A stretch of DNA of 64,000 bases from Dyadobacter sp. 676 (GTDB lineage: Bacteria; Bacteroidota; Bacteroidia; Cytophagales; Spirosomataceae): the NCBI RefSeq assembly GCF_040448675.1, contig NZ_CP159289.1, forward strand, positions 2,604,001 to 2,668,000, in the 5' to 3' direction. Position 1 is the first letter of the stretch. Each line of letters opens with the position of its first letter. Below, piece by piece: positions 8,923-12,044 of the stretch. Position numbers and translations under genes: made by a program. The notes beneath the pieces are model-generated. The model was not told the origin of the DNA. It ran no database searches and saw only the letters and a program-made list of their open reading frames with translations.

Positions 8923-9564
8923 TTATTGGTGACGGCTACGAAGTACGTCAATTACCTCATCTAAGTCAATGTTTTTTTGTTCGAGCAAAACGAGAAGGTG
9001 GAACAGCAGATCCGATACCTCGTTCTTGAAAAGATCGTCGTCATTATCCTTCGATTCGATGACAACTTCGACTGCTTCCTCCCCCACCTTCTGTGCGATT
9101 TTATTGATCCCCTTTTTGAAAAGGCTGCTGGTATAGGACGCATCCGAGGGGTTCAGCTTTCTCTCGCGGATCACATCTTTTTGCAGGTAATTCAAAAATG
9201 CGGCGTCGCCCGCACGTGTGTCAGCAATTTCCGGCTGGCTATTTTTTTCCCCAAAACAGGTATCCGCACCGGTGTGGCAAACAGGGCCCGCGGGTGTGGC
9301 TTTGATCAGCAATGTATCGCCATCACAGTCGGCCGCGATGTCGTTTACGAACAGAAAATTGCCCGACGTTTCACCTTTTGTCCACAAGCGCTGCTTGCTG
9401 CGGCTGAAAAAAGTAACCGTGCCCTGCTGCCGGGTAACGTCCAGTGCTTCGGCGTTCATGTAGCCGAGCATCAGCACTTTACCGGTATTTACATCCTGGA
9501 TAATCGCCGGCACCAGGCCCTCGGCCGATTTATTAAAGTCAATGGTTGAAAACGTCTCGCTCAT
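8923..9564 (-). CDS. hisIE: Bifunctional phosphoribosyl-AMP cyclohydrolase / phosphoribosyl-ATP pyrophosphatase HisIE
   Basis: 213-residue fusion catalysing steps 2 and 3 of histidine synthesis in the cytoplasm. The N-terminal HisI domain (about 1-115) shows SRSKQRLWTKGETSGN, the metal-binding DCDGDT and the cysteine site CHTG...C. The C-terminal HisE domain (about 120-213) is the all-alpha NTP-pyrophosphatase fold with GEEAVEVVIE and EVSDLLFHLLVLL. It is the last his gene of the hisH-hisA-hisF-hisIE run, 92 bases after hisF. Confidence 0.95.
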   Translation of the reverse strand: MSETFSTIDFNKSAEGLVPAIIQDVNTGKVLMLGYMNAEALDVTRQQGTVTFFSRSKQRLWTKGETSGNFLFVNDIAADCDGDTLLIKATPAGPVCHTGADTCFGEKNSQPEIADTRAGDAAFLNYLQKDVIRERKLNPSDASYTSSLFKKGINKIAQKVGEEAVEVVIESKDNDDDLFKNEVSDLLFHLLVLLEQKNIDLDEVIDVLRSRHQ

Positions 9565-9656
9565 TATTTGATTGTTTCAATTAGCACATTTCCCGCCAGC
9601 CCCGCATTGTGCTTCCCGGCCGGCCGGTTCTCTGTATTTAATAAAACTCCGCGCCA

Positions 9657-10430
9657 TTACCGGGTCATCCGGATCGGCAGGTCTTTGTTTTTAAGGTATT
9701 CTTTCAAATCGGGGATATCGATTTCCCGGAAGTGGAAAATGCTGGCCGCCAGGCCGGCGTCGGCTTTCCCGGCTGTAAAGACATCGTAAAAATGTTCCAT
9801 GTTGCCTGCCCCGCCGGAAGCGATCACCGGAATATTGGCATTCCCTGAAATAACCGCCGTCAGTTCCAGTGCAAAACCGTTCTTCGTACCGTCGGTATCC
9901 ATCGAGGTCAGCAGAATTTCGCCCGCGCCACGCTCCTCCACTTCCTTCGCCCAGGGTATGGAACGGATTTCCGTCGCTTTTCTCCCCCCGTGGGTGTGCA
10001 CGATGTGCTCATGACCGTTTTCCGTTTCGATATAACGCGTATCGATGGCTACCACGATGCATTGGCTGCCGAATTCGAGCGATAGCTCATTGATCAGGTC
10101 CGGATTGCGCACAGCCGCCGAATTGATCGACACTTTGTCCGCACCCGCGTGCAGTAACGCCGACACGTCCGCAATCGAGGAAATGCCTCCGCCGACGGTA
10201 AAAGGTATATTAATGGTCTGCGCTACTCTGCGGACGAGGTCGATAAATGTCGAGCGGCCATCCACAGTGGCGGTAATATCGAGGTAAACCAGCTCGTCGG
10301 CGCCTTGCGCGGCGTACAATGCGCCCAGTTCCACGGCATCGCCAGCGTCGCGGAGGTTCACAAAATTGACCCCTTTGACGGTCCGGCCGTCTTTCACATC
10401 GAGGCAGGGAATAATTCGTTTCGTAAGCAT
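9657..10430 (-). CDS. hisF: Imidazole glycerol phosphate synthase cyclase subunit HisF
   Basis: 257-residue TIM barrel that closes the imidazole ring from PRFAR and ammonia, giving IGP and AICAR. Visible features: the N-terminal [23 protein letters not shown] with the catalytic Asp of CLDVKDG, DITAT, the phosphate site FTVGGGI, the second catalytic Asp in LTSMDTDGT, and IASGGAG. Starts 3 bases after hisA ends. HisF works as a complex with HisH, encoded two genes upstream. Confidence 0.96.
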
Positions 10431-10433
10431 ATA

Positions 10434-11156
10434 TTAAACTGAAAAACGCTGTAAATCGGCCAGGCTGATCCGGTTTTCATAAATCGCCTTACCGATGATC
10501 ACGCCGTAGATATTCATTTCCGCCAGCTTTTCCACGTCTTCGATCCCTGCGATGCCCCCGCTGGCGATGATATTCAGGTCGGGACATTTCTCTTGCAGGT
10601 TTTTGTATAAATCAAATGACGGGCCTTGCAACAAGCCGTCCTTCGCCACATCGGTGCTAATGGTGTACTTCACGCCCTTTTCCACATATTCTTCCACAAA
10701 ATCATATACCCAAATAGCGGTACCTTCCTCCCAGCCGCTCACGGCGATCTTCTCGTTTTTGGCATCCGCTCCGAGAATAATCTTGTCGCCCCCGTGGGTT
10801 TTGAGCCAATGTCCGAACAGATCAGGTTGCTTTACGGCAATGCTGCCGCCGGTAACCTGTTTCGCACCGCTTTCGAATACAATTTTCAGATCGTCATCCG
10901 ATTGTACGCCCCCGCCGAAATCGATATGCAGCGAAGTTTTGGTGGCTATTCTTTCCAGCACTTTCCAGTTGACGACCTTTTTGGCTTTCGCACCGTCGAG
11001 ATCTACCAAATGCAGCCTTTTCAGGCCCGCGTCTTCGAATTGCAGCGCTACTTCCAGGGGATTTTCATTGTAAATCTTCTTTTGACCATAATCGCCCTGT
11101 GTGAGGCGGACGCATTTGCCTTCAATCAGGTCGATAGCGGGGATAATGTGGATCAT
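10434..11156 (-). CDS. hisA: Phosphoribosylformimino-AICAR phosphate isomerase HisA
   Basis: 240-residue TIM barrel doing the Amadori isomerisation of ProFAR to PRFAR. Motifs: [19 protein letters not shown] with the catalytic Asp, [32 protein letters not shown] with the second Asp, and ASGGI...[10 protein letters not shown]. It lies between hisH (17-base gap) and hisF (3-base gap) in one operon. Confidence 0.96.
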
Positions 11157-11173: not shown

Positions 11174-11764
11174 TTATCTGAGTTTGAGGAAATTTTCGAG
11201 GATTTGCTGACCTGCATTGCCGCTGATCTCGCAGTGGAACTGGGCGGCGTAAAAGTTGTCCTTATGCAGCATTGCGCTGAACGGCGATGCGTAATCGCAG
11301 CTGGCCACCGTGTAGTCGCAGATCGGTGCCGCATAGCTGTGAACGAAATAAACGTAGGCATTATCGGGCAGGCCTTCGGTGAGCGGTGATTGATAGCCGG
11401 TGATATTGTTCCAGCCCATATGCGGCACTTTGAAACCCGGGGCCGCAGGGAAACGTTTTACATCGACATCGAAAATACCCATGCATACGGTATTGTTTTC
11501 TTCCGAAAACCGGCACATGAGCTGCATGCCTACGCAGGTCCCGAACACGGGTTGTTTCAATGAAGGAATCACCTTATCGAGGCCCACATTGCGGAGGTAG
11601 CTCATGGTGGTGCTGGCCTCGCCTACGCCCGGGAAGATCACTTTATCGGCGGAACGGATCTCGGCTTCATCGTCGGTGTAAAGATAGCTCGCGCCAATGC
11701 GGTCGAGCGCGTACATGACCGACTGCACATTGCCTGCATTGTACTTGATAATGACGGTTTTCAT
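11174..11764 (-). CDS. hisH: Imidazole glycerol phosphate synthase glutaminase subunit HisH
   Basis: 196-residue class I glutamine amidotransferase that supplies ammonia to HisF. The nucleophile Cys is in [11 protein letters not shown], and His and Glu of the triad are in [10 protein letters not shown]. It is the first structural gene after the attenuator-like leader; the terminator hairpin ends about 25 bases before its ATG, so its transcription should depend on readthrough. Confidence 0.95.
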
Positions 11765-11788
11765 ACCAATCTGTACTTGAAATCGACA

Positions 11789-11820
11789 ATAAAAAAGCCC
11801 GATCTTGACAATCGGGCTTC
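11789..11820 (-). terminator. Attenuator terminator upstream of hisH
   Basis: Minus-strand hairpin AAGCCCGAT / ATCGGGCTT (9 bp, loop TGTCAAG) followed by six T, placed between a short His-containing leader ORF and hisH. The 5' arm plus flank (GGCTTCTGG on the plus strand, 11815-11823) can instead pair with GGCTTTCGG inside the leader ORF (plus-strand 11883-11891), which would form an antiterminator. Confidence 0.85.
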
Positions 11821-11869
11821 TGGGATACTATGTATTCAACCTTATTACAACACTACTTGCAAAAACACA

Positions 11870-11932
11870 TCACCCTAGACGTCCGAAAGCCATAAGGCCG
11901 TGATGCAAATGATATGTTTCAGCTGTTAACAT
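11870..11932 (-). CDS. Histidine operon leader peptide
   Basis: 20-codon ORF, MLTAETYHLHHGLMAFGRLG, with three His codons in four (CAT TTG CAT CAC) at positions 8-11, stopping at TGA. It lies between a consensus promoter and the terminator upstream of hisH, the classic place for an attenuation leader. Low charged histidyl-tRNA would stall the ribosome at the His run and leave the downstream GGCTTTCGG segment free to block the terminator; a ribosome reaching the stop codon would cover it. The ATG sits only 4 bases after the -7 box, so the transcript probably starts at or within a base or two of the A, with no ribosome binding site. Confidence 0.8.
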   Translation of the reverse strand: MLTAETYHLHHGLMAFGRLG

Positions 11933-11936
11933 GGCA

Positions 11937-11969
11937 CAAATGTAAGTAAAATTTACAATAACCGGTCAA
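11937..11969 (-). promoter_or_regulatory. Histidine operon promoter
   Basis: Minus-strand TTG, 22-base spacer, then TACATTTG, an exact match to the Bacteroidota -7 box TAnnTTTG. It lies directly upstream of the leader peptide ORF. Confidence 0.7.
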
Positions 11970-12044
11970 GAAAGCCGTAAATATTACATTAAAATTTGCT
12001 TAGAAAAATCTTCGTACCTTGCGGTTAACAAATGGCCCTGAACC

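Follow-up and report, generated by a model that had tools for sequence, protein, structure and literature searches.

A probable histidine attenuator with a putatively leaderless sensing peptide upstream of hisH in Dyadobacter and its relatives

The window, the whole stretch of 64,000 nucleotides of Dyadobacter sp. 676 DNA analysed here, carries on its minus strand a block of histidine biosynthesis genes that begins with hisH and is preceded by a compact leader. The genes after hisH are, as we take them to be from their translations, hisA (10434–11156), hisF (9657–10430) and hisIE (8923–9564), all on the minus strand. The parts of the locus, in the direction of transcription, are the following.

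11937..11944, minus strand: sigma-A −7 box TACATTTG (TAnnTTTG), read directly
11932, minus strand: predicted transcription start, the A of the leader ATG, from the distance to the box and the published box position
11870..11932, minus strand: leader peptide ORF MLTAETYHLHHGLMAFGRLG, 20 codons and a stop, read directly and conserved in the family
11907..11923, minus strand: segment 1, 5′ strand of the 1:2 anti-antiterminator stem, from folds and partner swaps
11900..11911, minus strand: control codons CAT TTG CAT CAC (His codons 8, 10 and 11), read directly
11864..11891, minus strand: segment 2, predicted 5′ arm of the antiterminator, from folds and register counts
11859..11875, minus strand: 3′ strand of the 1:2 stem, GGGTGATGTGTTTTTGC, from folds
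11821..11858, minus strand: near-invariant Dyadobacter spacer, its 3′ part within the antiterminator arm, from alignment
11812..11836, minus strand: segment 3, predicted 3′ arm of the antiterminator, AATACATAGTATCCCAGAAGCCCGA, overlapping the terminator 5′ arm, from folds
about 11791..11820, minus strand: intrinsic terminator (3:4) with T run, from sequence and fold
11174..11764, minus strand: hisH, first regulated gene, an ORF named from the first-pass annotation and its translation
8923..11156, minus strand: downstream genes hisA, hisF and hisIE, ORFs

Four bases (TGCC) lie between the box and the ATG. The ORF is followed by a 49-nucleotide spacer, a GC-rich hairpin (GAAGCCCGAT-TGTCAAG-ATCGGGCTTT) with its T run, and hisH, which starts with an ATG at 11764. 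The first-pass annotation had reported this arrangement: the 20-codon ORF with CAT TTG CAT CAC, the hairpin and T run, hisH next in line and a box ending 4 bases 5′ of the ATG are all read directly from the letters. Its consensus promoter stands in part, the TAnnTTTG box being in place at 11944–11937 but a −33 element not being established at the hisH leader promoter. On the single strand, the leader region folds better than its dinucleotide shuffles (z = −2.86; 2 of 200 equal or better). The comparison with Rfam His leader models that the first-pass annotation had proposed gave no match: at the gathering threshold the whole window yields two tRNAs only and no leader family, and a permissive scan of 11740–12040 (E ≤ 10) returned 7 weak sub-threshold matches, His_leader, presumably the Rfam family of the enterobacterial his attenuator, not among them. 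The lowest E-value in that scan belonged to Trp_leader, which was rejected because its 22.3 bits fall short of the gathering score, 41.

The leader recurs widely in the family of the window's genome, Spirosomataceae. Of 121 family genomes, 118 gave a HisH. We examined 90 hisH upstream windows from 33 genera with a single rule: a TAnnTTTG box, 3–5 bases, an ATG and an ORF of fewer than 45 codons with at least 2 His. The rule picked out an ORF in 58 windows from 20 genera. Applied to the opposite strand of the 90 windows it picked out 0, and among 1800 dinucleotide shuffles 1, so that an ORF of this kind at this place is beyond chance; by the same rule, 32 of the 90 windows have none. The spacing from box to ATG is 4 in 55 of the 58 ORFs, 3 in 2 and 5 in 1. 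Each ORF holds 2 to 5 His (two only in 7 of the 58), encoded by 172 CAT and 40 CAC codons. The peptides range from MNSTITHHHHHLIS to MIIAETYHHFHHSHLAFGRLG and from 13 to 26 codons in length, and between genera they have hardly anything in common except the His residues. Thirteen further loci with the leader are among the best 80 of 576 named HisH loci, in Dyadobacter, Spirosoma and Siphonobacter species and in one strain labelled Cellulophaga sp. BC115SP, and several are identical to family members across the leader region. Each of the 71 leaders compared, 58 from the family and 13 from named loci, had a terminator-like hairpin called between its ORF and hisH, although in one of them, L139 of genus g9, the wrong hairpin was picked. 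The first-pass annotation had made its reading depend on conservation in relatives, and ORF, His codons, spacing, terminator and pairings do recur in 20 of the 33 genera. At two other loci of genus g9, L151 and L152, there may be His ORFs behind a box that ends in TTTA instead of TTTG, outside the search rule.

The position of the box bears on where the RNA begins. Mapped starts in Flavobacterium psychrophilum place the sigma-A box, TAnnTTTG, at −12 to −5 (PMC9723704). With 4 bases between box and ATG, the same geometry puts +1 on the A of the ATG, and the hisH leader transcript should thus start there, if the box position carries over from that other genus. Leaderless mRNAs make up 5.5% in F. 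psychrophilum (PMC9723704), and about 3.7% of 5′ UTRs in Bacteroides thetaiotaomicron are shorter than 10 nucleotides (PMC7366714). The genome of the window holds 99 TAnnTTTG-N4-ATG sites, counted as exact boxes with spacing 4 only, versus 56 for the reversed pattern. Among 70 of the 99 inspected by eye, 27 start ORFs of at least 100 codons, which suggests that leaderless starts are no rarity in this organism. A second amino-acid leader was not recognised among these 70 sites, which do not include that of the hisH leader, nor was a Phe-rich ORF upstream of the pheA-like gene of this genome. Leaderlessness is not general to its attenuators, since trpE has a leader peptide, MKLFNTIWWWRAYPSKMDK, with a box, TATATTTG, 31 bases before its ATG. 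This trpE leader (L333; G000:C1 near 3119100, minus strand) lies about 160 bases 5′ of trpE and is followed by a terminator-like hairpin.

Three pairings recur in the leader RNAs. In the 1:2 pairing, the first half of the ORF, as far as the control codons, pairs with RNA from the ORF end onward; in the 2:3 pairing, the segment at the end of the ORF pairs with the 5′ arm of the terminator; and 3:4 is the terminator. In the window, segment 2 extends from GGCTTTCGG, within the ORF, as far as GGGTGATGTGTT, at the stop codon and beyond. The 2:3 helix is GGCAGAAC/GUUCUGCC in Spirosoma types and resembles CAGGAAAGGCU/AGCCUGAUUCCUG in other types, and the outer 1:2 stem of Spirosoma types occurs in compensated variants such as AUCACAAAAAC/GUUUUUGUGAU (L121) and CAGAAAC/GUUUCUG (L113).

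Pairing partners belong together across genera. We compared each sequence's own partners with partners swapped between sequences, using one sequence from each of 19 genera, which is the only correction for kinship and includes L139 for genus g9 with its mis-called terminator. Own partners pair at −17.24 versus −14.22 kcal/mol for swapped ones in 1:2 (z = −4.4) and at −15.96 versus −13.38 kcal/mol in 2:3 (z = −3.9), and 0 of 20,000 permutations did as well in either case. Taken singly against shuffled partners, 13 of the 19 sequences reach p 0.05 for 1:2 and 11 of 19 for 2:3. Across all 64 distinct sequences, z is −8.9 for 1:2 and −7.6 for 2:3 (0 of 5,000 as good). Swaps within clades give a strong signal for 1:2 among Spirosoma types (z = −4.8) and weak ones for their 2:3 (z = −1.4) and for both pairings among Dyadobacter types (1:2, z = −1.8; 2:3, z = −1.5).

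Alignment of 24 Spirosoma-type sequences adds detail. Their outer 1:2 stem is paired in 75.4% of cells, against 42–58% in slid versions, and has 18 cells changed on both sides, a number reached by 4 of 500 shuffles; the number of pairs with a double change, 6, is unremarkable (109 of 500 shuffles). The 2:3 helix is 92.7% paired, against 24–52% when slid, and too constant for covariation testing, and the 3:4 terminator is 99.5% paired with 7 double-changed cells, as many as in 0 of 500 shuffles. Compensatory changes, which the first-pass annotation had proposed to look for, are present in the outer 1:2 stem and the terminator of Spirosoma types, but 2:3 shows none beyond shuffles in either the Spirosoma-type or the Dyadobacter-type alignment. 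The swaps across 19 genera, together with the folds, point to an antiterminator that excludes the terminator and an anti-antiterminator that covers the control codons; within most clades the signal is weak.

The particular helices first proposed for the window need adjustment. GGCTTTCGG (11891–11883) and CCAGAAGCC (11823–11815) are at the sites given for them, but they match at 8 of 9 positions, with one C·A mismatch. An alternative pairing that excludes the terminator is supported; its register is better served by a longer, shifted helix. Likewise, CATCAC/GTGATG is part of 1:2, but the stable stem is longer, GCTGAAACATATCATTT with GGGTGATGTGTTTTTGC. In an alignment of 19 Dyadobacter-type sequences, the earlier register (GGCUUUCGG/CCAGAAGCC) is paired in 79.4% of cells and the shifted one (UCGG/CCGA, UCU/AGA and GGGUG/UAUCC) in 91.7%, and neither covaries beyond shuffles. 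The shifted register is also the predicted fold once the terminator 5′ arm has been made: in the window RNA, taken through that arm and its loop, with a ribosome on the His codons, UCGG-C-UCU-GGGUGAUGUGUU pairs with AAUACAUAGUAUCC-AGA-G-CCGA at −26.9 kcal/mol, whereas the RNA left free by a ribosome at the stop codon folds at −4.1 kcal/mol. One relative, L118, uses GGCUUCGGG/CCCGAAGCC, similar to the earlier register. The 3′ strand of the shifted helix is part of the near-invariant spacer, whose conservation within Dyadobacter exceeds that of the ORF in the alignment, and the modelled helix would explain part of this conservation. An 18-base core of the spacer (at most 1 mismatch) has a single match per genome in 9 of 61 family genomes, just 5′ of the listed hisH in 8 of the 9 and, in G042, in a leader at a contig end. 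Spirosoma-type and Siphonobacter-type leaders lack the core and keep the ORF, His codons and terminator.

When the full RNA is folded to its minimum free energy, the terminator forms in all the states tried, that with a masked ribosome on the His codons included; antitermination must therefore rely on folding during transcription. We therefore folded the RNA that exists before the terminator 3′ arm is made, free from 9 nucleotides past a ribosome on the second His codon. Over 63 sequences, the fraction of the terminator 5′ arm paired upstream is 0.66 with the ribosome stalled versus 0.36 with the ribosome at the stop codon, and it is higher in the stalled state by more than 0.05 in 59 of the 63; for the window's own sequence the two states hardly differ (0.59 versus 0.57). 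With the freed segment shuffled, the arm is paired at 0.52 on average, and 16 of the 63 sequences pass p 0.1 singly. The observed folding energy is −22.8 kcal/mol, lower than the −17.5 kcal/mol obtained with that segment shuffled (median z = −2.1).

The hisH leader is very probably a histidine attenuator of the ribosome-mediated kind, with a sensing ORF that is read from an RNA lacking a 5′ leader. Its parts, their conservation and the partner-specific pairing across genera are observed, and we infer the start site, translation and the response to histidine. Transcription would start on the A of the leader ATG, and a ribosome would load on the 5′ AUG before the adjoining 1:2 stem can close. 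With ample His-tRNA, the ribosome would reach the stop codon and cover the 5′ arm of the antiterminator at the end of the ORF, the terminator would form and transcription would end about 30 nucleotides before hisH. When His-tRNA is short, the ribosome would stall on the His codons and block the 1:2 stem, and the segment freed by the stall would pair with the spacer and the terminator 5′ arm, so that hisH–hisA–hisF–hisIE could be transcribed. If no ribosome loads, the 1:2 stem would form and termination would be the default. Termination by default, like termination with the ribosome on the stop codon, follows from the anatomy of the leader read through the E. coli model. Against this reading, the His codons of the window leader are three, not in one run, which is few.

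Should the leader instead be a histidine attenuator with an ordinary short 5′ leader, its transcript beginning a little upstream of the ATG at the same promoter or a different one, the leaderless claim would fail and the attenuator would stand. This is unlikely, though three points favour it: the box of the trpE leader in the same genome, 31 bases out, the 38 of 46 boxed hisG leader ORFs outside the family with a box 7–20 bases before the ATG, and a −12 to −5 position that comes from another genus. Against it stands the 4-base spacing kept in 55 of 58 family ORFs, which, with the published box position, places +1 on the A.

Far less probable is a ribosome-independent RNA switch, with the ultraconserved spacer as the binding site of a protein or some other ligand and the ORF there by accident. 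A spacer conserved above the ORF in Dyadobacter, with a core matched once in each of 9 of 61 genomes, would suit a binding site, but the core is missing from leaders of the Spirosoma and Siphonobacter types although these retain ORF, His codons and terminator, the 3′ part of the spacer is accounted for as an antiterminator arm, and Rfam gave no match at threshold. We give the least credence of all to a working small His-rich peptide, for example a metal-binding one, beside an incidental terminator. Conservation of a short ORF at the same site across 20 of 33 genera could be expected of such a peptide; a sequence of 13–26 codons that shares little except His across genera, placed before His biosynthesis genes with a terminator and alternative pairing, speaks against it.

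Ribosome-mediated his attenuation is a textbook mechanism. Mycobacterial polycysteine ORFs are reportedly leaderless attenuators (Canestrari 2020, by its title, cited in PMC13236596); judged by that title they are alike in being leaderless, short and amino-acid-sensing, and differ in sensing Cys. An older comparative attenuation study (Lopatovskaya 2010, cited in PMC4833913) may include Bacteroidota. The attenuator of Salmonella and E. coli his shares with the hisH leader a His-codon ORF, a terminator and an exclusive antiterminator upstream of his genes, with the same logic of stalling to antiterminate (PMC3896937). It differs in having 7 His codons where the window has 3, and hisG instead of hisH as the first gene; the hisH leader appears to have no 5′ leader, has no Rfam match and, in Dyadobacter, has segment 2 partly inside the ORF. 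The first-pass annotation had considered a sensing peptide without any 5′ leader unfamiliar in this phylum; leaderless attenuator ORFs are already known in other phyla (PMC7298713, PMC11857589). In Sinorhizobium meliloti, the trpL (rnTrpL) attenuator RNA has the ATG of its leader ORF as its first bases (PMC7298713) and is thus leaderless, but with Trp codons, in Alphaproteobacteria and at trpE(G). Corynebacterium glutamicum ilvBNC has a start site one nucleotide from the leader ATG and a hairpin, H1, said to shield the start (PMC11857589), and differs in its branched-chain codons and in belonging to Actinobacteria. Cys-rich candidate ORFs have been described in mycobacteria (PMC4633059).

Novelty within the phylum, also put forward in the first-pass annotation, holds for this leaderless his form, which we did not find described, but not for attenuation clues in Bacteroidota as such. 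In F. psychrophilum, operons for amino acids show clues to leader-peptide attenuation, and hisG is preceded by a structured 5′ element (PMC9723704); in Bacteroides, ORFs in long 5′ UTRs are reminiscent of attenuation peptides (PMC7366714). In the available text of a study of his genes across the superphylum, 'leader' is absent and 'attenuat' occurs once, in a general passage (PMC8305728). In the portions of the literature searched, neither a his leader peptide from Bacteroidota nor a leaderless attenuator from Spirosomataceae was described, PMC9723704 and PMC7366714 being nearest. As far as this search reaches, the strictly leaderless hisH form and its family-wide spread are apparently new, as are two results described below, the shift from hisG to hisH and the count of hisG leaders across the class. 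If the reading of the hisH leader is right, leaderless attenuators extend to Bacteroidota, and the family offers dozens of natural variants for testing how ribosomes load on a 5′-terminal AUG in time for termination control.

Elsewhere in the class, the His leader sits at hisG. Among 197 genomes sampled from the class, hisG was found in 89, giving 88 upstream windows with the window's own genome excluded. A tight His cluster in a short ORF lies upstream of hisG in 69 of the 88, versus 1 of 88 and 6 of 880 in controls. No exact box is near 23 of these ORFs; for the 46 with a box, the distance to the ATG is 7–20 bases in the 38 mentioned above and exactly 4 in 3. By sequence, then, class hisG leaders would mostly carry a short 5′ leader of varying length; they resemble the hisH leader in their His-cluster ORF and differ in place and in that mostly short leader. 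In the family, the same rule finds a His leader in 1 of 50 hisG windows (30 of 700 bases and 20 of 611, from 58 genomes with hisG). That one hit is in G018, where a leaderless His ORF stands at hisG (L342) and another at hisH (L114). At hisG of the window's own genome, which sits elsewhere, after hisS, no His leader was found; a HisS motif lies upstream of hisG in 3 of 30 family loci, so this arrangement is not general. A His leader at class hisG, nearly absent from family hisG and present at hisH, suggests that the attenuator moved from hisG to hisH in the window's family, perhaps as one and the same element; this would make it a regulator that changed position within one family, beside a class-wide hisG leader. 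It is conceivable, if somewhat short of probable, that on moving to a separate hisH–hisA–hisF–hisIE operon it became obligatorily leaderless. The 1:2 stem begins 6–9 nucleotides from the leader start codon, and under obligatory leaderlessness a ribosome would have to load on the nascent AUG ahead of the appearance of the stem's 3′ strand in order to take part. A single ribosome would then test the histidine supply with neither a Shine–Dalgarno sequence nor a 5′ leader, in a phylum whose mapped species have few leaderless mRNAs. As a separate observation, the open frame of hisD seems truncated near L202:7457 (L202:6762-8300; G000:C1 near 6594761-6596300), perhaps by a frameshift in the gene or in the assembly.
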